Of a DNA stretch of 42,879 bases, positions 15,629-34,386 are shown piece by piece. A program made the translations under genes and the position numbers. Under the pieces are notes generated by a model. It was not told the DNA's origin, did no database searches, and worked only from the letters and a program-made list of their open reading frames with translations. Source of the DNA: a virus; IMG/VR virus record IMGVR_UViG_3300008954_000094, positions 1 to 42,879 of that record; one strand, 5' to 3'. Positions within the stretch are counted from its first letter, which is position 1. Every line of letters begins with the position of its first letter.

Positions 15629-16186
15629 TTAACTTTCATCAGGCTGAGGTGGAGTCCACATGGACTGGACTTCCTCGTCAGGACTGCGTGGAAACGTAGC
15701 AATCTCGACGCCACCGAACCCGCCATCTTTTAACTTCCGCACATTTGGAAGCGAATCGCCAGCAAATATCATTCTCTTTACAAACTGAAATGGGATGTTT
15801 GTACCCAACTTATCAACCATATCATGCACACCATGCCCAGACGTATAAGCAGAATCGGTCATACCGATACGGACACCAGTTTCACCGTTGGGGTTTAAGG
15901 TGTACTGACCCGAGCCTGCAAGCCCCTCGCCATCCAACTCCAAAACTACATCGCCATGCCTTTGTGCATCGTTCATGTCTAACGAGCAGGGCACGCCAGT
16001 GCTATCTTCTTCAAAGTCCACCTCGCTGGGAAGGTTTGTAATGCCGTTGTCCCTGAGACTATCAAGCTGGTCAGAACTAACCGCATGATACATCTGCTGT
16101 GGTGTATCTTGCATCGTAGCTGCTGATTGTGAATCTTGTTCTTTTAGGAAAGTCCTAAAGCTTTCCATAATCAATTTCATACCCAT
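15629..16186 (-). CDS. head-targeted ADP-ribosyltransferase-like protein (185 aa)
   Basis: Starts MGMKLIMESFRTFLKEQ, the shared head-targeting peptide with a predicted prohead-protease site after F-L-K-E. The next block, Q-M-Y-H-A-V-S-S-D-Q-L-D-S-L-R-D-N-G-I, fits the Y-H-x-[ST]-x4-L-x-x-[IL]-x-x-x-G-[IL] opening of ADP-ribosyltransferase and RNA 2'-phosphotransferase-like folds. Later V-V-L-E-L-D-G-E-G-L and a C-terminal V-R-K-L-K-D-G-G-F-G-G-V-E-I agree with that fold; catalytic residues cannot be fixed. T4 Alt, a packaged ADP-ribosyltransferase, is the known parallel. Start could be three codons upstream or two downstream. Confidence 0.55.
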   Translation of the reverse strand: MGMKLIMESFRTFLKEQDSQSAATMQDTPQQMYHAVSSDQLDSLRDNGITNLPSEVDFEEDSTGVPCSLDMNDAQRHGDVVLELDGEGLAGSGQYTLNPNGETGVRIGMTDSAYTSGHGVHDMVDKLGTNIPFQFVKRMIFAGDSLPNVRKLKDGGFGGVEIATFPRSPDEEVQSMWTPPQPDES

Positions 16187-16217
16187 GTCTTGTTCCAACT
16201 CCTTGTGAACGTGCTAA

Positions 16218-16228
16218 TAATAAATAGT
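16218..16228 (-). promoter_or_regulatory. putative late-promoter element
   Basis: Minus strand reads ACTATTTATTA, about 35 bases upstream of the head-targeted gene at 16186. Confidence 0.35.
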
Positions 16229-16245
16229 ACCAACAATCGTAAATG

Positions 16246-16482
16246 CTATATCATTGTTTTAGGATGGAATGTCGCCTTGCAGCGGACAGACTGCCCTCGA
16301 TATTCCATATCCAAACTACCCGTGAACACCTTGTGCATGTGCCCCTTGTCTTCTTTATATTTTGCGAGTGCGACCACCTGACGATTCAAGTAATCCAGCC
16401 TTTTCTGATAAGTGTGTATCATGAGATACTGCAAGCCGATGACCAGCGTTAACATAATCCCGACGAATACATCGAAAAACAC
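16246..16482 (-). CDS. small membrane protein (78 aa)
   Basis: GTG start overlapping the previous stop (TAGTG). An N-terminal span (F-V-G-I-M-L-T-L-V-I-G-L-Q-Y-L-M-I) is followed by a helical stretch (Y-Q-K-R-L-D-Y-L-N-R-Q-V-V-A-L-A-K-Y-K) and a soluble strand-rich end. The layout resembles inner-membrane spanins or holin-associated proteins. It lies after another small membrane protein; together they may form a lysis or envelope pair (inference). Confidence 0.6.
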   Translation of the reverse strand: MFFDVFVGIMLTLVIGLQYLMIHTYQKRLDYLNRQVVALAKYKEDKGHMHKVFTGSLDMEYRGQSVRCKATFHPKTMI

Positions 16483-16643
16483 TATTCCCTCTCTTTCGTG
16501 GTATAAATCCCGATGAGGCAGCACCCGGCAGAGCCGAGAGCCAGCAGTGATAAGTCAGCCGATGGCAGGCTGAATCCTATGATGAACACAACCGCATTAA
16601 CACCGACCGCCATCCACAACATTGAGCGCAGAAACTTATTCAT
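16482..16643 (-). CDS. small membrane protein, two spans (53 aa)
   Basis: Read directly: MNKFLRSMLWMAVGVNAVVF, a hydrophobic run to F-S-L-P-S-A-D and a second span L-S-L-L-A-L-G-S-A-G-C-C-L-I-G-I-Y, ending in charged T-T-K-E-R-E. Two short helices with a basic start and charged end are typical of small holins. Coupled by TAGTG to the next gene. Holin function is possible but unproved. Confidence 0.55.
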   Translation of the reverse strand: MNKFLRSMLWMAVGVNAVVFIIGFSLPSADLSLLALGSAGCCLIGIYTTKERE

Positions 16644-16650
16644 AAATTAA

Positions 16651-16848
16651 TTAGTCACTCATTCCACAAAGCCGCTTGGCTTCATCTGAAATTGTCACCA
16701 CGTCCTCTTTCTGCCTCTGCTGCTTCTTCTCTTTCTTATCCCGCTGCTGGTGGTGCTGATTTGCTTCGGGGTTTGATTGGCTCGTCTTCGTAAGGGGCTT
16801 TATTTTCCTGCCCACCGTCGCCAAGTATCTCGTCTTTATTTCGTTCAT
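16651..16848 (-). CDS. small charged protein overlapping the HD gene (65 aa)
   Basis: MNEIKTRYLATVGRKIKPLT, a Gln/Lys-rich low-complexity middle and the tail D-V-V-T-I-S-D-E-A-K-R-L. That tail resembles the D-x-V-x-[IL]-S-x-E-A-x-x-L end seen in FlgM-like and some phage proteins. The frame overlaps the 3' end of the HD-domain gene by 113 bases. Either the genes truly overlap or a frameshift once joined them, this being the original C-terminus of the HD protein. Confidence 0.45.
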   Translation of the reverse strand: MNEIKTRYLATVGRKIKPLTKTSQSNPEANQHHQQRDKKEKKQQRQKEDVVTISDEAKRLCGMSD

Positions 16849-17410
16849 GGTCTGTCACCCTTTCTGATTCTTTCTGCCAGTCTCGCTCGCTAATTTCACT
16901 CTCGACGCCCAACAAAGAAGTCAGTGCTTCCCAGTGAGCGTCATTGATTCCACTTGGCTTGCCACCGAGGGCAACAAGCGCATTGTGGTATTTATTATAT
17001 TGTTTGGAGTCAGGACGCAAATCCTGTGAATTGTGATACATGTCCAGCAGCTTCACGGCTACCGCCTCAGAAGACAGCGACATCACATAGTCAGTATACT
17101 CCACTCCCTTATCATGCGTCAACTCTTTTACGATAGGAAGTGCTTCGGGGCACACACTTTTTATTAATTCTGCCATCTCTGCTGGGTCATGGTAATCTTC
17201 TAATGTATCATGAAGGAGTGCTGCATCGGATATTGCGTCAGAGTATCCGAATTCTTTTGCGTATTCAGATGCGGCTTTGGGGTGAGTTATATATGGTTCA
17301 CCGCCCCTTCGGGTCTGCCCTTGGTGTGCGAAAGTTGCAAGCTGCTCCACTTCATCCTCGTCACATTCTTCGTCAATATACTTGCGCCATCGCTCCATCA
17401 ACAGCTTCAT
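16736..17410 (-). CDS. head-targeted (p)ppGpp hydrolase-like HD protein (224 aa)
   Basis: Begins MKLLMERWRKYIDEECDEDE, the head-targeting peptide. From residue 23 follows a SpoT/Mesh1-type HD domain: F-A-H-Q-G-Q-T-R-R-G-G-E-P-Y-I-T-H-P (R35, H43), A-A-L-L-H-D-T-L-E-D (H67, D68, E71, D72) and V-K-L-L-D-M-Y-H-N (D123, N127). All metal and catalytic positions expected for the hydrolase are present; no synthetase domain exists. The natural substrate would be (p)ppGpp, the starvation signal. The last 60 residues are charged and look disordered. If packaged, it would remove the host alarmone at the moment of infection. ATG overlaps the previous stop (TGATG). Confidence 0.82.
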   Translation of the reverse strand: MKLLMERWRKYIDEECDEDEVEQLATFAHQGQTRRGGEPYITHPKAASEYAKEFGYSDAISDAALLHDTLEDYHDPAEMAELIKSVCPEALPIVKELTHDKGVEYTDYVMSLSSEAVAVKLLDMYHNSQDLRPDSKQYNKYHNALVALGGKPSGINDAHWEALTSLLGVESEISERDWQKESERVTDHERNKDEILGDGGQENKAPYEDEPIKPRSKSAPPAAG

Positions 17411-17598
17411 CACATTTGCTCCGCTGTATCTTCTTCGCCTGCTTCCGGCAAATCATCAAGTTCTTCTTCATCCAATGCCGGTAAATCATAAGTGCGTGGC
17501 ACCAGCGGGTCCACCTCTACTTTTTTTTTACAGCCGACTGTCATCCATGCGACAGCAGCCAAAAGCACTACACTAAATAAATAATCTCTTTTTCTCAT
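17410..17598 (-). CDS. small acidic lipoprotein (62 aa)
   Basis: MRKRDYLFSVVLLAAVAWMT, then V-G-C-K-K-K: a basic start, a hydrophobic core and Cys23 in a lipobox-like V-G-C. The mature 40 residues are acidic (D-E-E-E-L-D-D-L-P-E-A-G-E-E-D). It could be an outer spanin, often a short lipoprotein, but it lacks the usual proline content and has no clear partner next to it. Confidence 0.6.
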   Translation of the reverse strand: MRKRDYLFSVVLLAAVAWMTVGCKKKVEVDPLVPRTYDLPALDEEELDDLPEAGEEDTAEQM

Positions 17599-18347
17599 AC
17601 CTCAATCAACCTCCCTGCGGCTTTCAAAGCCTTCATAACATCTGCGCTGGGCTTGTAATACATCTTGGATAATGGCGTGTCTGCCCACTTCTCTTTGCCG
17701 ACCTGAATCGCCTTGCTTTGGTCACAGTCATCCTCGGGCTTGTCTGGTGTCAAATGTGGGAATTGCTTTCTCTTTTTCGGCAAGCCATCCTTCGCCCACA
17801 TTTGAGTATGGTCAATGTCCATCTGCTTTGTATCCACATCACCACGCTTCTCGTACTTTGCCCAGACCGCTTGTGCCTCGTCGGAAACAATTGCACGGTC
17901 AGCAGTCAAGCCACCGCCACGTTGCGATGCCCACTCAAGCGCGACCTCGTATAACAGCGGACCCCAGCCATCCGCAGCATTTGTAGCCATGATGATATGC
18001 CCATCGTAACACTCGCCGTCGCCCTGTGGCTCCGATTTATAAATTTCAACCTGACCGTAAATCTCATACTTCTCTGGGTTTATGTAATAATCGTCCTCAT
18101 CTTGACCTTGGGCATCCAACTTGGCTGGTGTCATGTCACCGGGGAACGCCATATCCATAAACTGTGGATGCTCTGCTTCTGGGTCAGTAATAAAAACATA
18201 TCTGAAAGCCTTGCCGAAGCCGTCGCTTGTAATCGCAACACCAATTTCAGGAAACCGAAGAAGTGCATCCAACTGCTTTTTGATGCGCGGGTCGATGCCC
18301 TCGTTGATAGCAACATACCTTCGCCAATGTTCCATCAGTTGTTTCAT
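17595..18347 (-). CDS. head-targeted acyltransferase-like protein (250 aa)
   Basis: ATG at 18347 overlaps the previous TGA and gives MKQLMEHWRRYVAINEGIDP, the head-targeting peptide with a predicted cut after I-N-E. Around residues 130-170 it has G-W-G-P-L-L-Y-E-V-A-L-E-W-A-S and G-G-L-T-A-D-R...A-Q-A-V-W-A-K-Y, a pattern I associate with GNAT-like phage proteins. The acetyl-CoA loop is not certain. C-terminus is basic. Possible role: modifying a host target after injection (inference). Confidence 0.6.
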   Translation of the reverse strand: MKQLMEHWRRYVAINEGIDPRIKKQLDALLRFPEIGVAITSDGFGKAFRYVFITDPEAEHPQFMDMAFPGDMTPAKLDAQGQDEDDYYINPEKYEIYGQVEIYKSEPQGDGECYDGHIIMATNAADGWGPLLYEVALEWASQRGGGLTADRAIVSDEAQAVWAKYEKRGDVDTKQMDIDHTQMWAKDGLPKKRKQFPHLTPDKPEDDCDQSKAIQVGKEKWADTPLSKMYYKPSADVMKALKAAGRLIEV

Positions 18348-19141
18348 CGTGATTGGTCCTGAATCTGTGTATAAAGTTTTTTCCAAAACTTCTGAAGCTC
18401 TTTCGGCTGGTCACTTAGCGCGTCAACATAGTCAGCTACCACGCCTCCAACGTCTGGGTTCTTTCGACTAATTATATCAAGAGCTTCTTCAGCGGAATAT
18501 TTATCTAATAATTCTTCAGCGGCTTCGTGGGCAAACGCATCGACCTCGATGTGTCGGCTCAAGTACCCACCGCGTGTTCCGCTCTTATCCATCTGTTTTG
18601 GGTCATCTAACAATTCTTCCCACGCATCTTCATCAGAGATACCCTTGCTTGCCGACTGCTTCTTCAACTGGTTATAGTGTACCAATTCATGATTGAGCGT
18701 CAGAGAGATTTTCTTTACCAACTCGTCTGAGTTTAAATCTTCCATGTTAAAATCTTCTGAGATGGGGCGCAACTCAATCCAAATAACATGCAGCCCGTCT
18801 TGCGGTCCACGATACTGTCCCTGCATCATCCAGTTGTTGGGGTATCCTCCAAACTGGTCTTCGGGCGCAAGTTCGTAGCCTTCTTCGGCGGTCACTGTAA
18901 TGACAAAGTTTAAATCTGTGCCGAGTTCCTCAGCCTTGGCATTAAGTGCAGACATAAGGGCTTCACTGGCAGGGGAACCCAAGTTGGTTGTACCACCAAC
19001 TTCGTCTACATCGTCTTCAGTATGCGGCTGAGTCCAAAAGTTTGAGTCAGCGATAGCCTGCCTAAAACCTGTCTTTTGGTCTTCAGGTACAGCCGTAGCT
19101 TCAACTATATACTTCCTCCAACTTTCCATTATCAGCCGCAT
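18344..19141 (-). CDS. head-targeted zinc metalloprotease-like protein (265 aa)
   Basis: MRLIMESWRKYIVEATAVPE is the head-targeting peptide with the predicted cut after I-V-E. At residues 145-160, I-S-L-T-L-N-H-E-L-V-H-Y-N-Q gives the H-E-x-x-H zinc site (H151, E152, H155). H-I-E-V-D-A-F-A-H-E-A-A-E-E-L (E199 as third ligand) follows at suitable distance. This matches a gluzincin-like arrangement. AAGGAG before the ATG. A packaged protease might act on host or internal head proteins; the target is unknown. C-terminal helix is charged. Confidence 0.68.
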   Translation of the reverse strand: MRLIMESWRKYIVEATAVPEDQKTGFRQAIADSNFWTQPHTEDDVDEVGGTTNLGSPASEALMSALNAKAEELGTDLNFVITVTAEEGYELAPEDQFGGYPNNWMMQGQYRGPQDGLHVIWIELRPISEDFNMEDLNSDELVKKISLTLNHELVHYNQLKKQSASKGISDEDAWEELLDDPKQMDKSGTRGGYLSRHIEVDAFAHEAAEELLDKYSAEEALDIISRKNPDVGGVVADYVDALSDQPKELQKFWKKLYTQIQDQSR

Positions 19142-19155
19142 ACTTCAGTATCTCC

Positions 19156-19296
19156 TTACAGCAGGCAGCTTCCAATAGCCAAGCCAGCAGCGAATGCGCT
19201 GCCAATCAACAAGTAATCTGTTCGGGCACCCTGCCCCTTCGCTAGTTTTAGCAACAGCGTTGCTGTATCCTTAATGTCTTTACATAAATCTTTCAT
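19156..19296 (-). CDS. small membrane protein (46 aa), copy of the one at 19827
   Basis: Read directly: MKDLCKDIKDTATLLLKLAK, then D-Y-L-L-I-G-S-A-F-A-A-G-L-A-I-G-S-C-L-L. The C-terminal span matches the 53-residue protein at 19827-19988 (D-Y-M-V-V-G-A-C-F-A-A-G-V-A-L-G-S-C-L) nearly position by position, while the N-terminal part differs. GGAGGT precedes the ATG. A product of the local duplication. Confidence 0.65.
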   Translation of the reverse strand: MKDLCKDIKDTATLLLKLAKGQGARTDYLLIGSAFAAGLAIGSCLL

Positions 19297-19298
19297 GG

Positions 19299-19379
19299 TT
19301 ATTTACCTCCTTCGTCCCTTTCCATGTCAAGGGTTTTCTTAGACTTTTTCTCATCTGGCAAGTGGTTCGCTGATTCCAT
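19299..19379 (-). pseudogene. duplicated 3' remnant of the gene at 19981-20433 (26 codons)
   Basis: Encodes M-E-S-A-N followed by HLPDEKKSKKTLDMERD, nearly the exact C-terminal tail of the protein at 19981. The DNA is 41/43 identical over 19316-19358 versus 20007-20049. The rest of the gene is missing and no Shine-Dalgarno is visible before the ATG, so it is probably a fragment left by duplication. It might still be translated, as GGAGGT for the next gene lies in its last codons. Confidence 0.6.
19316..19358. repeat. direct repeat, copy 1 (43 bp)
   Basis: Matches 20007-20049 with two mismatches, in the same orientation. Marks a tandem duplication of a gene tail plus a small membrane-protein gene. 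Confidence 0.9.
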
Positions 19380-19382
19380 TAT

Positions 19383-19392
19383 ATTAAATAGT
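19383..19392 (-). promoter_or_regulatory. putative late-promoter element
   Basis: Minus strand reads AACTATTTAATATAATGG, the shared ACTATTTA element followed by a TATAAT-like run, just upstream of the remnant and small membrane protein. Confidence 0.35.
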
Positions 19393-19406
19393 TTGGGAAG
19401 ATTCTT

Positions 19407-19814
19407 TTATTTATTTGTTCCCGCAGGTTTGGCGATGTTCATAACAAATCCTGTCTTACCAACAAGTATAGTGTGGTCGTTGTTCTCATCTTTACCGAAG
19501 GCTCCTACTTCATAATCTTCGCCCGTTGTCCTGATTTCGTAGGTCTTTCTCTCGGCAGAGCCGTCAATAACCACTAACTTGGTTTGTGAGCCCTTGGCTG
19601 TCCCTCTGTCAGTTAGTGCCCCGATGACACGATAAACAGGCTTGCGGCTGCCGATAGTAAAAGTGTCGCCTCTATCTAAGCCAACCAAATCGTCATAGTG
19701 AGAAGAGCGTCCTTCTGATTCCCCACGCTCTTCATCAGAAAACCCGAAAGCATCCCAGTCAAAGTCGTCTGCTTCTTTCATAAACTTCCGCCAATTCTCC
19801 ATTAAAAGTTTCAC
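19407..19814 (-). CDS. head-targeted protein with small beta domain (135 aa)
   Basis: MKLLMENWRKFMKEADDFDW is the head-targeting peptide; predicted cut after F-M-K-E. From residue 45 a strand-rich domain follows: L-D-R-G-D-T-F-T-I-G-S-R-K-P-V-Y-R-V-I-G, K-L-V-V-I-D-G and K-T-G-F-V-M-N-I-A-K-P. It resembles the barrel fused to other phage proteins here. GTG start with GGGGAG upstream. No catalytic motif seen. Confidence 0.65.
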   Translation of the reverse strand: MKLLMENWRKFMKEADDFDWDAFGFSDEERGESEGRSSHYDDLVGLDRGDTFTIGSRKPVYRVIGALTDRGTAKGSQTKLVVIDGSAERKTYEIRTTGEDYEVGAFGKDENNDHTILVGKTGFVMNIAKPAGTNK

Positions 19815-19826
19815 TTGTTATCTCCC

Positions 19827-19988
19827 CTACAAGCAAGACCCCAAGGCTACGCCTGCGGCAAAGCACGCACCGACGACCATGTAATCCTGCATGTGTGCTT
19901 TGCACATCACCAACTGCTTCACGGTCAGGCAAGCACTAAGCGTGGACTCCTTGACCTCGCTCAAAATATTTTTAATTTTACTAATCAT
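19827..19988 (-). CDS. small membrane protein (53 aa)
   Basis: ATG at 19988 overlaps the previous TAG (ATGATTAG). An N-terminal helix (M-I-S-K-I-K-N-I-L-S-E-V-K-E-S) precedes the C-terminal span Y-M-V-V-G-A-C-F-A-A-G-V-A-L-G-S-C-L. The span is rich in small residues (G/A-x3-G), favouring helix packing in the membrane. Paralogue at 19156-19296. Role unknown. Confidence 0.65.
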   Translation of the reverse strand: MISKIKNILSEVKESTLSACLTVKQLVMCKAHMQDYMVVGACFAAGVALGSCL

Positions 19989-20433
19989 TTGATTTATCTC
20001 CTTTATCCCTTTCCATGTCAAGAGTCTTCTTAGACTTTTTCTCATCTGGAAGGTGCTTCTCGATTCTGAATTTTAAAATTGGTTTGCCATTAACGGTTGG
20101 CTGTCCAAGTTCATCGGTGCCAATCTCTTTGACTTCCATGCGCTTGTTTTTATATTTACCGCCAAGAATAACGTCTCCGACTTCAATGTCAAGAGAGATG
20201 GCTTCGTTCACTGGTTCAGGTTCCTCGCCCAAGCCAAGCTGCTGGATGGCTAAGTCAACGATACTATGTACCTGCTTCTGAATCCTTGTTCTGTCCGTAG
20301 GCTCGCCAGCGTTCATGCCCATCGTCTGCATCTGCCCCATCACAAAATCAATAACAGCATCTTGGAACTGTTGCTCGTTGGGGTTGCCGCGCTCGTTGAG
20401 ATGCTTTCGCCAATTTTCCATTAGCTGTTTCAC
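19981..20433 (-). CDS. head-targeted protein with C-terminal barrel (150 aa)
   Basis: MKQLMENWRKHLNERGNPNE is the head-targeting peptide; predicted cut after H-L-N-E. After a helical middle (Q-F-Q-D-A-V-I-D-F-V-M-G-Q-M), residues 80-128 read L-D-I-E-V-G-D-V-I-L-G-G-K-Y-K-N-K-R-M-E-V, then V-N-G-K-P-I-L-K-F-R-I, a small barrel related to the GDLV family. The charged tail D-E-K-K-S-K-K-T-L-D-M-E-R-D is copied 690 bases downstream. GTG start overlaps the previous stop (TAGTG). Confidence 0.7.
   Translation of the reverse strand: MKQLMENWRKHLNERGNPNEQQFQDAVIDFVMGQMQTMGMNAGEPTDRTRIQKQVHSIVDLAIQQLGLGEEPEPVNEAISLDIEVGDVILGGKYKNKRMEVKEIGTDELGQPTVNGKPILKFRIEKHLPDEKKSKKTLDMERDKGDKSND
20007..20049. repeat. 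direct repeat, copy 2 (43 bp)
   Basis: Encodes the charged C-terminal tail of the protein at 19981-20433; 41 of 43 bases match 19316-19358. Confidence 0.9.
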
Positions 20434-20837
20434 TATGCAATCCTCTTATCGACAACCTTAATTGCAGCAGGCTGAACAACACCATGATACTCAACTGTGT
20501 CGCCCTCATTGTCTGCCACGTTGCTGTCCAACTTGAATAACTCTGGGTTCAATTGTGTGGTGTCTATTTCCATGATGACAATCTCTAGTCCATCTTCACC
20601 CTCAAACTTATCCCACGCATCGTCAGATGTTTCGGCATAAGAAAATGCCACTTCGGGGTCAAGCGCAAGATAGACAACACCACGAGCAGAGTCTTCCCAA
20701 TATGTTTCTCTGTCGCCACCAAGACCATCTTTCTGAATAGATGGGATTAGCGGTCCATAGCTTGCGTGATAAAGGACGGGAGGAACTTCATAGTTCTCTT
20801 TGAGGTATCGTCGCCAATTTTCCATTAACTGTTTCAT
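20433..20837 (-). CDS. head-targeted ADP-ribosyltransferase-like protein (134 aa)
   Basis: MKQLMENWRRYLKENYEVPP, the head-targeting peptide with a cut predicted after Y-L-K-E, is followed at once by V-L-Y-H-A-S-Y-G-P-L-I-P-S-I-Q-K-D-G-L, the Y-H-x-[ST] opening of ADP-ribosyltransferase-like folds. Then G-V-V-Y-L-A-L-D-P-E-V-A-F-S-Y-A-E and I-V-I-M-E-I-D-T-T-Q-L, strands expected of that fold, and V-E-Y-H-G-V-V-Q-P-A-A-I-K-V-V at the end. The protein is almost only this domain. Activity is untested; a related RNA 2'-phosphotransferase-like role is an alternative. Confidence 0.62.
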   Translation of the reverse strand: MKQLMENWRRYLKENYEVPPVLYHASYGPLIPSIQKDGLGGDRETYWEDSARGVVYLALDPEVAFSYAETSDDAWDKFEGEDGLEIVIMEIDTTQLNPELFKLDSNVADNEGDTVEYHGVVQPAAIKVVDKRIA

Positions 20838-21535
20838 TTCTTTCTATTCTCCCGCAGTTTACGCACGACAGCTTTCCTGATACGCTCTCTCAAATCTTGG
20901 TCTGATTGGTGACGCCACTCGTAATGCTCATCAGCCTCGGCATCGTATGGCTGGGGTTCTTCTTGGTCGGACATCATGTCACCGATGACACCCTCAATAT
21001 CTTCTAAGCCAACTCCGTACTGCTGCATAATTTCCGACAAGGCATCTTGGATTTGAATGTGAAGGTCACCCATGCGACTTTCATGAATCTTATTTCTTTT
21101 CTTGCTTTCGCTGTAATACGACTCAAAATCATACTCGCCATCATCTTCATACTCGTCTTCGGCTTCAGGCATTTGCTCAAGCTCCATGTTATTCATCTTA
21201 CCCCAAGCTTGGAGAATCTTTTGATTGTCTGCACCATAGTAATCTTCAAAGACGCTGCTGTCCCACTTCTGCATTCCACCTTGATTTTTGTTTGGGTCTG
21301 CGTTGACAGCCATCATTCTATCAATTTGTTCTTCGGGTGCCCAGCCTCCGACCCCAGCATCAGCCAAGTCGAGAACCATCATTCCTAGAGTCTGCTCTGT
21401 CTCTTCGCCATTCTCATCGAAGAATTCATACACATCCCCATAGCCAGTGTTGGATACAGAATACTGAAGCTTGCCTTCGGTGAGCCTCCATCTGTCCCAG
21501 CCCTCATTCAGCTTTTTAAAATCTTTAAGTTTCAT
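20834..21535 (-). CDS. acidic virion-type protein with variant targeting peptide (233 aa)
   Basis: Starts MKLKDFKKLNEGWDRWRLTE, with two L-x-E sites (K-L-N-E, R-L-T-E) that fit the prohead-protease pattern. The middle is rich in Asp/Glu and Tyr; the C-terminus is helical (L-R-E-R-I-R-K-A-V-V-R-K-L-R-E-N-R). N-terminal part W-R-L-T-E-G-K-L-Q-Y-S-V-S-N-T-G-Y-G-D-V-Y looks strand-rich. No enzyme motif. Possibly an internal head or core protein. Confidence 0.6.
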   Translation of the reverse strand: MKLKDFKKLNEGWDRWRLTEGKLQYSVSNTGYGDVYEFFDENGEETEQTLGMMVLDLADAGVGGWAPEEQIDRMMAVNADPNKNQGGMQKWDSSVFEDYYGADNQKILQAWGKMNNMELEQMPEAEDEYEDDGEYDFESYYSESKKRNKIHESRMGDLHIQIQDALSEIMQQYGVGLEDIEGVIGDMMSDQEEPQPYDAEADEHYEWRHQSDQDLRERIRKAVVRKLRENRKK

Positions 21536-21552
21536 TTTGTAGTTTCTCCTTC

Positions 21553-22188
21553 CTATAAAGCGTCGGGCCCAAGCCCTAATATAACACCAGCGACAGCCAA
21601 AGCTTCGTCAGCAATTTTAAAAATCTCTCTGGGTCGCTTCGTTTCGCCAAAGCCTGTTTCCAGATAATGATGAATTTCATTTTCAAGGGCTGCACCACTG
21701 TGGGCACCAGCATCAGGAATTGTCTCTAGAGCCGCCTGTGCCGCTTCAACCGCTTCTTCTGAATATTGAGCGAGCAGGTCGGAGTCCGCACCAGCTTCAC
21801 CTTCCGGCGCAACCCTTTGTGAATCTGCGAACTTCTTGTCTGCGAGGGTTTCATATTCATCGCTATACCAATCACCCTCCGAACCCCCGTCAGTGGAGCC
21901 TCCAGACTCCATCATTGGCGGTGCGCCAACGGGGTCAACCGGGTCAACTGCGGTGCCAAGCAAGCCCTTGCTAAGAAGCAAGTCAACAACTCCCTGAGCC
22001 ATGGCGGGGTCAAGCCCGATAGCGCCCAACTCGGCAGCTAATGCCATCGGGTCTGCATCGTCGGACGGGATTGGCACTGCACTGGGCATGGGTGGTTCCG
22101 GTGGCATCTCGCCACACTCTTTAACGGGGTTTTGTACACTTTCTTTTAAAAATGTCTTCCACTTTCCTCTGTTATAAAATTTACTCAT
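21553..22188 (-). CDS. proline/acid-rich virion-type protein (211 aa)
   Basis: ATG at 22188 overlaps the previous stop (ATGAGTAA). MSKFYNRGKWKTFLKESVQN is a variant of the targeting peptide with F-L-K-E. Then a proline-rich low-complexity stretch, a small helical part (P-M-A-L-A-A-E-L-G-A-I-G-L-D-P-A-M-A-Q-G-V), and a C-terminal domain with H-H-Y-L-E-T-G-F-G. No known family. Likely an internal head protein. Confidence 0.6.
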   Translation of the reverse strand: MSKFYNRGKWKTFLKESVQNPVKECGEMPPEPPMPSAVPIPSDDADPMALAAELGAIGLDPAMAQGVVDLLLSKGLLGTAVDPVDPVGAPPMMESGGSTDGGSEGDWYSDEYETLADKKFADSQRVAPEGEAGADSDLLAQYSEEAVEAAQAALETIPDAGAHSGAALENEIHHYLETGFGETKRPREIFKIADEALAVAGVILGLGPDAL

Positions 22189-22555
22189 TTGTTTCTTCCT
22201 CTGCCTCATCATCATTCTGTCCAAATGTCTGCTGCTCGCCATCTTGATATGTGATGATGGTCTTGTTCGCAGGATGTGGACCGATGTGGACTCTAATAAA
22301 ATCGTTCATGCTATCGAAAATAGCAATGCCGCCTCTGGGCGGCGGGTAAAGCCAGTGTACAATACACTGCCCTGTTGCAAGCACAACGCCCTCTATGACA
22401 ACACCAGTGCCTGACACACCAGTTTCGTCCGCACGGCGGGCTACCGTGAATGTTTTGATACCGCGTGCTGCCAGCTTGGGTGGAGCGGACGGCAACAGTT
22501 CATTGTCTGAAATCTCAAGCCCCAATATGGACTCGCCATTATTATCCTCACTCAT
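22181..22555 (-). CDS. hypothetical protein of the head-cargo operon (124 aa)
   Basis: MSEDNNGESILGLEISDNEL...V-S-G-T-G-V-V-I-E-G-V-V-L-A-T-G-Q-C-I-V-H-W-L-Y-P-P-P-R-G-G-I-A-I-F-D. The central part matches a compact phage beta domain, perhaps barrel-like. The acidic tail ends D-D-E-A-E-E-E-T-N-E. The start at 22555 has GGGGGTGA upstream. It lacks the targeting peptide. Confidence 0.62.
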   Translation of the reverse strand: MSEDNNGESILGLEISDNELLPSAPPKLAARGIKTFTVARRADETGVSGTGVVIEGVVLATGQCIVHWLYPPPRGGIAIFDSMNDFIRVHIGPHPANKTIITYQDGEQQTFGQNDDEAEEETNE

Positions 22556-22559
22556 TGAA

Positions 22560-23192
22560 TCACCCCCTAATATTTGCAAGTGTCTTCCATCTGCTCAAGA
22601 TGCCCTCGTTAAGCTTTTCTTCAAGCCCTTCTTCTTCGCCGCCCTCGGCAGGTTCCTCTGCCTGAGCCTTCTCTGCTGGTGGTGCTTCTTCTGGTTGTGC
22701 CGCTCCTTCTTCTTCTGCTGCTGCCGATTCTTCTTCTGCCGACTCAGCTTCTTCTGCCGCTTCATCTTCAGCTTCAGCCGCTTGGTCTTCGGCTTCTGCC
22801 TCGGCTTCTGCCTCGGCTTGTGCAGCTTCGTCTTCAGCCGCTTTCGCTGCTTCTTCTTCCTTCTGCTTTTGAATTTCAAAGTGTGTGTTCAGGCTAGTAA
22901 AGAATTCTTCCAACTGGGGGAGGAATTCAACAGCAGCCTCCATCCGCTTCAAGTTGTCAGGACTCAAGTAGTCCTGCAATGTGGTCAACTGCCCAACAGC
23001 ATCTTCCAGCGCAGCCTGTACCTGCTCTGGGTCCATGTCGGCTCCTTCGTTGAGAACGCGCCTTCGCTTCCCAAGAGAGCGATAGGACTCCTTTAGTGAT
23101 TTCAAATAATAATAAGTAACACTCGACTTAGTTGGCTTAACGCCATTCTTTTTTAAAGCCTCTGTTACCACGTCAACGATATCTTTTGCCAT
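22560..23192 (-). CDS. Ala/Glu-rich, scaffold-like protein (210 aa)
   Basis: N-terminal 60 residues are helical and basic (L-K-E-S-Y-R-S-L-G-K-R-R-R-V-L-N-E-G), with a V-L-N-E site of the protease type. A middle helix follows, then about 80 residues almost wholly Ala and Glu, and a C-terminal E-E-K-L-N-E-G-I-L-S-R-W-K-T-L. Such charged, low-complexity helices are typical of phage scaffold or core proteins. It opens the cargo operon behind an ACTATTTA element. Identity as scaffold is an inference. Confidence 0.62.
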   Translation of the reverse strand: MAKDIVDVVTEALKKNGVKPTKSSVTYYYLKSLKESYRSLGKRRRVLNEGADMDPEQVQAALEDAVGQLTTLQDYLSPDNLKRMEAAVEFLPQLEEFFTSLNTHFEIQKQKEEEAAKAAEDEAAQAEAEAEAEAEDQAAEAEDEAAEEAESAEEESAAAEEEGAAQPEEAPPAEKAQAEEPAEGGEEEGLEEKLNEGILSRWKTLANIRG

Positions 23193-23345: not shown

Positions 23346-24275
23346 TCAACGACCTCGCAAGGCTGGATACGGTAATCCAACCTTTTCGGGGCTATGATGT
23401 TCAAACAACTTTTTATAAAACTTAGTTTCTTTCTTGGACTTTCCAAGAATATAAACATACTTGTGCTTGGATGGGGATGGTCTTTGCTGGCACCGCGCCT
23501 TGTGAGATGTGCGCTCTTGTTTCAGCCGCTGAGTAACTTGTTCGGGGATTGCTGACCAGTCAACCTTTCTATAGTTCTTCTTTGAGCCGACCATCTTGTA
23601 CCACTCAGGTTGCCACTCAATGCCCAGCTTCTTGGCATACCTGACAATCTGGCTCCTGTCGCTAAACCCAGACGAACCAAACCAGCCGCGCTTGGGATTA
23701 GCAGGGTCTAAAAATTGTTTGCCGGTGCCAAACTTCTGCCCCAAATAAATAAAGTTGCACGCCTGATAAATTGTTCCCAACTCTTTAGCTTCTGGGTCAC
23801 TGTAAGCAGTGAAGAATCTGAATTCTGTATTCGCCACCATCCAGCGCACGGCACTCATGATTAGCCACGAACCCATGTTCTTTGGCGACCACGATATACT
23901 AGCGCCACGGGAGATTAGCTTTTCTTTCCCCTTGTTCTCGCGCCCCAGCAGGTTTGAAAAAGTGTTCGGCGTAGCCATGACAACAACGCCTGCGAGGATT
24001 CCGCTGCCCCTTAACCGTGCCGTGAATCTTTGCGTTGCCCAGATGGGCATCTTACCAAGCCATTCGTGTCGCTCAATAAAATCTTTAATCTCTTGGCACA
24101 CCTCTTTGTTTTCTTTTGGAACAAAGGCGAATTCAAAATCCGATATAGACAGCTTTTGTGCTTCTTCTTCACTCAGCCCAGACTCTTTAAGGTCTAAAGA
24201 AAGATTTTGCTGGCGTATTTCATACTGCCAGCAGTGGTTTTCAGCGTAGTTCTCAAACCTCTCATATACATTCAT
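23346..24275 (-). CDS. Mom-like acyltransferase protein (309 aa)
   Basis: Central residues 85-190 have a GNAT-like layout: F-T-A-R-L-R-G-S-G-I-L-A-G-V-V-V-M, S-W-S-P-K-N-M-G-S-W-L-I-M-S-A and the striking F-F-T-A-Y-S-D-P-E-A-K-E-L-G-T-I-Y-Q-A-C-N-F-I-Y-L-G. The last pattern (Y-S-D-P/tY-x-A-x-N-x-x-Y-x-G) is, from memory, that of the Mu Mom protein, which modifies adenine in phage DNA, and of related phage proteins. The basic C-terminus (Q-R-L-K-Q-E-R-T-S-H-K-A-R) could bind DNA. Moderately sure of family, not of substrate. Confidence 0.55.
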   Translation of the reverse strand: MNVYERFENYAENHCWQYEIRQQNLSLDLKESGLSEEEAQKLSISDFEFAFVPKENKEVCQEIKDFIERHEWLGKMPIWATQRFTARLRGSGILAGVVVMATPNTFSNLLGRENKGKEKLISRGASISWSPKNMGSWLIMSAVRWMVANTEFRFFTAYSDPEAKELGTIYQACNFIYLGQKFGTGKQFLDPANPKRGWFGSSGFSDRSQIVRYAKKLGIEWQPEWYKMVGSKKNYRKVDWSAIPEQVTQRLKQERTSHKARCQQRPSPSKHKYVYILGKSKKETKFYKKLFEHHSPEKVGLPYPALRGR

Positions 24276-32169: not shown

Positions 32170-32913
32170 TTAAAATACCTCGTCTGCGATTCCGTATTCT
32201 ACTGCTTGCTGTGCTGTTAAATAGATATTAACTTTTCTACCCAGCATCTTCTTGACCATTGCCTTTGTCATGTCGGACTCGGAAACCAGCGTTTCAATAT
32301 ATCTTTCCTGCATCCATCGAATCTCATCCATCTCGTTTTCAAGATTGTGCATAGCACCGTGGGTTCCACCAACGACTGAGTGAATCATCACACGACAATT
32401 CTTTCCAATCCTTCGTTTGCCCTTCGTGCCTGCCGCAAGAATAAGGACGCCAGCCGACATCACCTTGCCAACGCCGGTTGTTGCAATGTCCATATCATCT
32501 CTGATGTGTCTCATCATGTCGTAGATACCGAACATGTCGCTTGCGCTACCACCGTGTGTTGAGCAGATAATTTCTATTGGCTCATAGGATGTTACGATAT
32601 CAGACGAGGGGTCTTCGGGTACACTAAATTCTTCCCGCTTGCCAGTCTCCTTCAGCGAAAGCATACCATAGATTAACTCGCTCGCCTTTTCCTCATCTAC
32701 GTCGCCAATCATTCCAAGGACACGAATCTTTCCATCCGAACGCCCAGCCCCTCCACCTAACATATCAAAGAGCGGTGGCAACATAATGATTGACTTCTTT
32801 GATTCTTCTTTTTCTTCTTCAGCCTCGACTCCTTCGGATTCCGACTCTGCTTCCGCAGATTCTGCAACCTTCTCAACTTCTTCAACTTCTTCAGTTTTCT
32901 TTTTTCTTGGCAT
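32170..32913 (-). CDS. ClpP-like protease with altered triad (247 aa)
   Basis: A 40-residue acidic, disordered N-terminus precedes a ClpP/crotonase-fold domain: I-E-I-I-C-S-T-H-G-G-S-A-S-D, G-V-G-K-V-M-S-A-G-V-L-I-L-A-A-G-T-K (Ser153 as nucleophile) and R-V-M-I-H-S-V-V-G-G-T-H-G (His178). At the place of the catalytic Asp the sequence reads K-V-N-I-Y-L-T-A-Q-Q-A-V-E-Y-G-I-A-D, so Asp seems to be Asn229. ClpP needs Ser-His-Asp; an Asn is unusual, but some relatives work with Ser-His. It could be a host-Clp partner, a modulator or a head protease. Confidence 0.85.
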   Translation of the reverse strand: MPRKKKTEEVEEVEKVAESAEAESESEGVEAEEEKEESKKSIIMLPPLFDMLGGGAGRSDGKIRVLGMIGDVDEEKASELIYGMLSLKETGKREEFSVPEDPSSDIVTSYEPIEIICSTHGGSASDMFGIYDMMRHIRDDMDIATTGVGKVMSAGVLILAAGTKGKRRIGKNCRVMIHSVVGGTHGAMHNLENEMDEIRWMQERYIETLVSESDMTKAMVKKMLGRKVNIYLTAQQAVEYGIADEVF

Positions 32914-33195: not shown

Positions 33196-34386
33196 TTATG
33201 ATGAACTGTTTTTCATCATCTCCCAGATAGCCCTTTCGATTTTAGCCGCAAGCTTCTGTTCGTTAACTGGTGCATCTGGAGCCAAGTCGCGAATCGACGG
33301 GTCTTTGCCGTCCTTGCCATCGACACCAAATTTCTCACCCGGCTGCTTGCGACCACGCTGAGAGCCTGCAAGCGGAACCTCGACGCCGCCCATGTCTGCA
33401 ATGAGTTTCGTCGCCTGCACAACGGCTGGGTCATCGGTGGCAACGCCAGCTTTAGCAGCGGAGCCAAAATCAAGCATGTTCTGCCCAAGCTTGCCGCCGG
33501 AAACTTTAACCAACGCCTTCATCCCAGATAAAATAGTCTGACCTGTGGGGTTTTTTGGCTCTGCGGTTGCCCAGTTTTCAAGGTCGTTTCGTGCCGATGC
33601 CAATAAGCTGGCTGCATATTCGGCTGTGAACGGCTTACCGTCCACCGTCTTCATTGCGTTGACATGCTCATCGGTAATACCGGGAAGCAAGCTGTTGTCA
33701 CGAAGGTCATATAAGTTTGCATAAATATCCCCACCAAGCATAGTAGCATATGGCTGGTCTGCTAGCGCCTTAAAGTATCCACGCTCTTGGACAACCTGCT
33801 TCTGATAGTCTGCGGAGATTGTCTTCGTTGGCTCGCCAACGGTTCGCTTTCGGTTGTCATCGCGGCTAACGGAAACATCGACAGGCACATTAACCTGAAA
33901 GACTGCAACATCATAGCCGATTTTCATAAGATTCTTCATGCGCTTCACAATCTTTCCCACATCCTCGCCAGTCGTATCAAACACAATAGGGTTTGCAATT
34001 GAAAGCATATTGTGAGTGTGACCTTGGGATGCGTTCTGTAAAACTTCACGGGCTGTCTGTTGAGCCTTTGCGATTGGGCTAGACTGCTTTTCTGCGCCTC
34101 GGTCGAACGTGCCTTGACGGAAGTCCATGCTCATTCCGAAGGTCGGGAATACATCTTCAATACGCTCATCTGGATTGGAGACAACAAAGTCCTTTGGAAT
34201 GCCGATTTGCTTGGACAAGAAAGACTTGCCTGCCCCTGCTGGTCCAAAGATAAAAATAGCCTTGAAGGGGTGCTTATTTTTTAAGATACTCTTTTCTGCA
34301 AGCATCTCAGGAGATTCTATAAGGGAAGTGTCTTTTCCTAATTCTTCCAGAACCATTCTCTTGAGTGCATCATATTTTAACTTCAT
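33196..34386 (-). CDS. P-loop kinase, zeta-toxin-like (396 aa)
   Basis: Residues 45-56, F-I-F-G-P-A-G-A-G-K-S-F, are a Walker A loop. F-V-V-S-N-P-D-E-R-I-E-D (zeta-type N-x-D/E after it), N-P-I-V-F-D-T-T-G-E-D and G-Y-D-V-A-V-F-Q-V-N-V-P-V-D-V-S-V-S-R-D-D-N-R-K-R-T follow; this order and the R-x3-R near the end match AAA_33/zeta-toxin kinases. The C-terminal 180 residues are not recognised. The first 19 residues, M-K-L-K-Y-D-A-L-K-R-M-V-L-E-E-L, are a targeting-like helix. Substrate unknown (zeta toxins act on UDP-sugars, others on polynucleotides). Confidence 0.75.
   Translation of the reverse strand: MKLKYDALKRMVLEELGKDTSLIESPEMLAEKSILKNKHPFKAIFIFGPAGAGKSFLSKQIGIPKDFVVSNPDERIEDVFPTFGMSMDFRQGTFDRGAEKQSSPIAKAQQTAREVLQNASQGHTHNMLSIANPIVFDTTGEDVGKIVKRMKNLMKIGYDVAVFQVNVPVDVSVSRDDNRKRTVGEPTKTISADYQKQVVQERGYFKALADQPYATMLGGDIYANLYDLRDNSLLPGITDEHVNAMKTVDGKPFTAEYAASLLASARNDLENWATAEPKNPTGQTILSGMKALVKVSGGKLGQNMLDFGSAAKAGVATDDPAVVQATKLIADMGGVEVPLAGSQRGRKQPGEKFGVDGKDGKDPSIRDLAPDAPVNEQKLAAKIERAIWEMMKNSSS

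Follow-up and report, generated by a model that had tools for sequence, protein, structure and literature searches.

Unrelated proteins of a T4-superfamily phage share an N-terminal peptide that is probably a capsid-targeting propeptide

The stretch analysed here, which we call the window, comprises 42,879 nucleotides (nt) of the IMG/VR virus record IMGVR_UViG_3300008954_000094 (positions 1 to 42,879). Seven neighbouring genes on its minus strand encode proteins which open with the same peptide, M-[KR]-x-[LI]-M-E-x-[WF]-R-x-[YFH]-[LIMV], referred to below as the tag, while the mature parts that follow are unrelated (Table 1). A degenerate DNA pattern for the peptide was found at exactly 7 sites in the window, all of them belonging to these genes, where 100 shuffles gave 0.02 on average, and all seven genes with the N-termini described in a first-pass annotation of this DNA indeed exist. 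Six of the starts given there stand as they were, while the motif of the first gene opens with the ATG at 16180, the proposed 16186 being an in-frame ATG two codons upstream. The genes are closely packed and partially overlap, as 18344-19141 does with 17595-18347. An [LIM]-x-E site, predicted to follow within about 15 residues, lies within 16 residues of the start in all seven (LKE, IDE, INE, IVE, MKE, LNE and LKE). When an N-terminal profile was run over all open reading frames (ORFs) of the 77-kb parent contig, the seven tagged proteins scored 25-39 and the next best ORF scored -9.7, so that they stand apart. Variant forms of the tag had also been claimed for the genes starting at 21535, 22188 and 23192; these hold as weaker cases, although the start of the last one looks different.

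The domains behind the tag were assigned with unequal firmness. An AlphaFold2 (AF2) model of protein 7 (predicted local distance difference test, pLDDT, 82) gave KptA/Tpt1 as the best PDB match in Foldseek (E 3.8e-5, template modelling score about 0.5), which places this protein by its modelled fold in the ADP-ribosyltransferase (ART) superfamily, closest to KptA/Tpt1, as had been guessed from the sequence. The HD hydrolase guess was likewise borne out, as protein 2 is by domain profile an HD phosphohydrolase (Pfam HD_4, 1e-6 from residue 24, over the cut-off; PHROG 990, 1.4e-28 from residue 19). The acyltransferase-like guess fared less evenly. Several members of the protein 3 family carry a GNAT-like motif of the RGKG type, while the model of protein 3 (AF2 pLDDT 68) gave weak PDB fold matches to acetyltransferases, the best with E 0.45; its assignment to a GNAT-like acetyltransferase family is thus moderately supported. 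The metalloprotease-like guess finds the HExxH motif of protein 4 as its sole basis, and a putative zinc protease is here a lead only. The family of protein 1 includes two further proteins (L074:9891-10448 and L073:1899-2420), both tagged too. The acidic protein at 22560..23192, with a weak match to a PHROG head protein (0.0017), is a candidate prohead core (scaffold-like) protein.

Table 1. Genes of the window with the tag or a variant of it (a slash marks the predicted cut)
Feature	Coordinates	Strand	N-terminus	Remarks
Tagged protein 1	15629..16180	-	MKLIMESFRTFLKE/Q...	ART-like motif MYHAVSS.. in mature part; ART assignment from motif alone
Tagged protein 2	16736..17410	-	MKLLMERWRKYIDE/E...	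HD-domain phosphohydrolase
Tagged protein 3	17595..18347	-	MKQLMEHWRRYVAINE/GIDPRI...	GNAT acetyltransferase-like family of 14
Tagged protein 4	18344..19141	-	MRLIMESWRKYIVE/ATAVPE...	HExxH (HELVH) motif, possible zinc protease
Tagged protein 5	19407..19814	-	MKLLMENWRKFMKE/A...	GTG start; small domain, function not assigned
Tagged protein 6	19981..20433	-	MKQLMENWRKHLNE/R...	GTG start; second site VNE/AISLDIEVGD
Tagged protein 7	20433..20837	-	MKQLMENWRRYLKE/N...	Predicted ADP-ribosyltransferase fold
Diverged-tag gene	20834..21535	-	..GWDRWRLTE/GKLQYSVSNTGYG	Homologue in contig G020 with full tag, MKLLFENWRKYLTE/GKMKYSVSNTGYG
Variant-tag gene	21553..22188	-	MSKFYNRGKWKTFLKE/S..., KWKTFLKE/S	Probable cargo or core protein, from sequence
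Acidic Glu/Ala-rich protein	22560..23192	-	Non-standard form of tag, different-looking start	LNE/G near both ends; LKE and LNE sites

The window matches bases 33794-76672 (reverse complement) of its parent, the 77-kb viral contig G001, with 100% identity. Since G001 starts inside a gp23-type major capsid gene and continues with a head-tail adaptor, a tail sheath and a long T4-type tail module, the phage is a T4-superfamily myophage, and gp20-gp22 would lie directly off the end of the contig. The closest large relative found was G020 (184 kb), whose gp23 is 88% and DNA polymerase III 70% identical; it shares the order of the head-tail genes, has a tagged cluster homologous to that of the window, and carries gp23 as well as an S77 prohead protease, the latter at C1:81460-81918.

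To locate the end of the tag, we computed the information content per position over 145 training sequences. It was high up to position 11 except at position 10, reached 1.98 bits at the glutamate at 14 and was down to 0.2, near background, by position 17, while position 12 was mostly L, I or V. Among the collected proteins, which were drawn from loci among the matches listed in viral contigs so that totals are lower bounds, 114/190 had E at 14 together with L or I at 12, and 82% had [LI]-x-E within positions 12-30 against 20% within the control positions 42-60. L/I-x-E is the cleavage rule of the T4 prohead protease gp21 (PMC9026906). Inside the tag the codons vary synonymously, with six leucine codons at position 3 and six arginine codons at position 9; it is therefore the peptide, and not the DNA, that is conserved and under selection. 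The helix of the tag is amphipathic, with L4, M5, W8, F11 and L12 on one face.

The strongest evidence is modularity: judged from the alignments, relatives of the window domains occur with other N-terminal peptides or with none, and the switch takes place at the [LI]-x-E bond. The zinc-protease-like protein 4 reads MRLIMESWRKYIVE/ATAVPEDQ in the window and MKITRRQLRQIIKEEILLCE/STAPDKEL in loci L217 and L218; the ART-fold protein 7 reads MKQLMENWRRYLKE/NYEVPPVLYHAS in the window and MKLLREYIRVLLEQPDIGLPPTLYHAT in L210; and the HD protein 2 has MKLLMERWRKYIDE/E in the window, MKVSRKLIREILLE/K in L284 and MTNKITDNWQKYLRE/N in L047. Homologues lacking the tag were found for two more proteins, namely MKLIMENWRKYLQE/GGNIF..., whose untagged counterpart in the isolated Flavobacterium phage immuto begins M/GGNVF..., and a nucleotidase-like protein, ...FLNE/EQEYEIYCDMDG, whose untagged counterpart begins MKYQVFSDMDG. 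Comparison with G020 gave a similar picture. The internal site VNE/AISLDIEVGD of protein 6 (19981-20433) aligns with the tag end FLQE/AITLDIEVGD of its relative there; in protein 3 the spacing from tag to cut site differs by two residues while [IL]NE/GIDPRI is kept; and the product of 20834-21535 (RWRLTE/GKLQYSV) matches a G020 protein with MKLLFENWRKYLTE/GKMKYSV. The parallel with the T4 internal proteins drawn in the first-pass annotation, that of a peptide ending at [LI]-x-E, is thus supported both by where conservation ends and by exchange at that bond.

The tag is widespread in viral contigs, and its pattern is specific. At least 119 stretches there carried the forward pattern while 5 carried the reversed one, and in 257 Gb of bacterial and archaeal genomes only 15 stretches were found, on the order of chance by our own estimate of 7-8 for a pattern of about 36 bits. 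The collected set holds at least 190 non-redundant proteins with the peptide, falling into at least 117 families unrelated behind the tag, that is, groups without detectable similarity there at E < 1e-4. Searched with the profile, each of 14 peptide-bearing records gave 1-11 tagged genes, and most large genomes 4-11; over the whole genome of G016 the tagged genes scored 20-42 and all others 2 or less. The bare peptide was also sought in isolated phages, with no match. In other phages the domains behind the tag include zeta-toxin-type kinase, AAA_33 kinase, GNAT, NUDIX, cytidylyltransferase-like, C5 DNA methylase-like, LysM, DUF192 and DUF2441 domains, and many of the tagged proteins scanned had no database match at all.

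Furthermore, the tag goes together with genes of the prohead. Among 16 peptide-bearing contigs that measured 120 kb or more, 15 had both a gp21-type (S77) protease over the Pfam cut-off and gp23; the exception, a contig of 125 kb, had neither. Nineteen of 134 tagged genes lie within 4 kb of gp21, whereas genes placed at random in a genome of 180 kb would give 4.1 (p = 3e-8), and many of these sit between gp20 and gp21, the interval occupied in T4 by the core genes 67 and 68. Some members of the protein 3 family adjoin gp21 or gp23. The gp23 proteins of tagged phages have N-terminal segments of the LLxKWExxGLLEG type, for example ALLSKWERTGLLEG, and in T4 gp23 there is ELLNKWKPLLEGE; such tag-like segments may bind the same core partner as the tag.

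Two cases in other phages may be mentioned with respect to their neighbourhood. A family with a conserved DGHHRW motif (L026, L031, L050 and L148) comes directly after gp21 in several phages, and the gene of a C5 DNA methylase-like protein with the head tag (L110:1442-2416) follows immediately after gp23, a possible hint that an enzyme which modifies DNA is packed together with the genome.

Combined together, these observations are best read as follows: the shared 14-residue N-terminus is a capsid-targeting propeptide, cut after [LI]-x-E, on cargo delivered with the DNA, a reading to which we give a probability of roughly 0.88. About 7-10 cargo proteins of the window would be tagged, with a propeptide like that of the T4 internal proteins but different in sequence. 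As a short amphipathic helix the tag would attach to the T4-type prohead core while this assembles, and each protein would thereby get inside; the gp21-type protease would then cut after [LI]-x-E, leaving the mature enzyme free in the head, from where it would depart with the DNA at infection. The operon 15629-21535 (perhaps to 23192) would accordingly be a cargo cassette of an ART-fold protein, an HD hydrolase, a GNAT-like acetyltransferase, a putative zinc protease and others, and these individual proteins may act as effectors in the host.

The model for this reading is T4, where the N-terminus of ipII and ipIII is experimentally a targeting sequence cut by gp21, and where the first 10 residues of IPIII, which gp21 removes, are enough for packaging (PMC9026906). 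The capsid-targeting sequence of IPI, IPII and IPIII, and the Alt propeptide, resemble the tag in being short N-terminal peptides which start with MK, have [LI]-x-E at the end and precede unrelated mature parts, and the phages concerned have gp23 and a protease of the gp21 type; T4 Alt is moreover an ADP-ribosyltransferase, and one cargo protein here has a predicted fold of that kind. On the other hand, T4 ipII and ipIII start MKTYQEFIAE/A, with 10 residues, while the tag has 14 and a Trp. The residues that matter most for targeting in T4 are 4 and 7, and those for processing are 8 and 10; here positions 4, 5, 8, 11 and 12 are hydrophobic and the predicted cut comes after 14. Only the MK...E...F[IL]xE skeleton is alike, cargo proteins are more numerous per genome, and several dialects of the peptide exist. 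The tag would thus work like the T4 capsid-targeting sequence, while its membership in that family by sequence is not established. In the Salmonella phage SPN3US-type system, which belongs to a separate lineage, propeptides are likewise cut off behind a glutamate by a prohead protease, and the cell receives a bolus of ejected proteins (PMC9026906, PMC5694885). The defence-against-restriction proteins DarA and Hdf of phage P1, known to us from the literature, are reported to be head-associated as well and linked to DNA ejection (PMC12810830).

Several points weigh against the propeptide reading. The prohead protease gene which the first-pass annotation expected elsewhere in the genome is found neither in the window nor in its parent contig, a fragment which begins inside gp23; it is the syntenic G020 and the 15 of 16 contigs mentioned above that supply the S77 enzyme. 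T4-type phages are common among large marine contigs, and because they are common in that size class the co-occurrence with gp21, taken alone, is modest evidence. A tagged gene lies within 3 kb of gp21 in only about 5 of the 18 large contigs with gp21, which by itself does not convince, the clear excess near this gene coming from the wider set of 134 genes. About 5% of tagged proteins have no [LIMV]-x-E near the tag. The profile found no match in T4, Mel-JY01, immuto, RM378 or Va3, so that homology to the T4 signal is not shown by sequence. Virion proteomics for this phage clade was not found in our literature search, nor were such data for the virion of phage immuto.

We also considered that the peptide does target the prohead core and is cut there, while most of the tagged proteins are structural or core parts needed for assembly and not injected effectors. 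The position of several tagged families between gp20 and gp21, the place of the T4 core genes, fits this, and the product of 22560-23192 looks like an acidic core protein. However, many tagged families are enzyme-like and accessory (HD, GNAT, NUDIX, zeta-type kinase, cytidylyltransferase-like, C5 methylase-like and ART fold), and they differ from phage to phage, as would fit cargo over scaffold; we hold a mainly structural role to be unlikely, though it deserves serious thought. The peptide could instead have a localising role in the cell that has nothing to do with the head, whether as a membrane anchor, as a means of binding a phage compartment or as a degron which another protease cuts, given that amphipathic helices can bind membranes and that a ClpP-like protease is encoded in the window. 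This appears improbable, as conservation stops at a gp21-type site where other peptides are exchanged, the tagged genes cluster near gp21, the gp23 of the same phages has similar LLxKWExxGLLEG segments, and the ClpP-like protein is present also in G020, which has its own S77 protease. Adjacent, tightly packed, operon-like genes would also suit a shared N-terminus that remains from gene duplication, or that serves translation start and has no role in targeting; this is hardly tenable with at least 117 unrelated families on many contigs, with residues kept while synonymous codons vary, and with the same domains bearing different peptides.

The tag appears to be one of several shared N-terminal peptides. 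When N-termini were compared de novo within genomes, with the same count at other offsets as control, shared pairs per genome numbered 6 to 596 at the protein start and 0-3 at the control offsets. The smallest counts (G036, immuto and Mel-JY01) are weak, and one immuto cluster consists of ordinary signal peptides. In G016, G020, G030 and G002 the tag came first or second among the shared N-termini, with MKKLLTEWRKFLKE as a variant in G002. A second peptide, MKITKRQLRRIIKEE... (ending ...LLNE), was found on 36 genes of G034 and about 10-12 of G002, and a third, MKLLREYIRSLLxE, on 9 genes of G034, a 201-kb contig (L224-L233 lie at its 83-161 kb); up to 45 genes are thus tagged in one genome. Conservation in the second peptide drops beyond position 15-16, and glutamate peaks a second time at 22. 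It also occurs in viral contigs, at no fewer stretches than the matches listed, and was absent from the parent contig of the window; a P-loop/zeta-kinase-like protein (33196-34386) whose start, MKLKYDALKRMVLEELGKDTSLIE, loosely resembles it was scored as background. We suggest, tentatively and as a possibility that we would not call probable, that large marine T4-superfamily phages use several packaging peptides (MKLIMENWRKFLNE, MKITKRQLRRIIKEE...LLNE and MKLLREYIRSLLxE) side by side as interchangeable address labels. Each would be read by a different core component or would set dose, position or order of release, cargo genes would move between phages by label swap at [LI]-x-E, and G034 would pack up to about 45 labelled proteins.

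The principle of a packaging peptide is already known from T4, while the peptides, their dialects with up to 45 tagged genes in a genome, and the cargo are new with respect to the literature searched, in which neither the tag nor the second dialect occurred as a peptide; the four text matches to the tag were unrelated. The set of injected proteins is known for almost no phages, as it requires virion proteomics of a cultured phage; if the packaging signal is true, that of many uncultured marine T4-superfamily phages would become readable from sequence. The families, already at least 117 and many lacking a database match, would be a source of candidate host-takeover and anti-defence proteins, and with the peptides as tags one could also load phage heads with foreign proteins.

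Some further features of the window were noted. The ClpP-like protein (32170-32913) has an acidic N-terminal extension, matches PHROG families of head maturation protease and of ATP-dependent protease, and is kept in G020. In view of the former matches it was considered as the head protease, and was set aside because G020 encodes a separate S77 protease in addition to a homologue of this protein. Between tagged genes there are two small, related ORFs of membrane type with similar AFAAGLAIGSCL ends (19156-19296 and 19827-20045), and the DNA at 19301-19376 is 87% identical to that at 19992-20066. Beyond the cassette, 23346-24275 encodes a Mom-like DNA modification protein (PHROG 1384, 1e-16).

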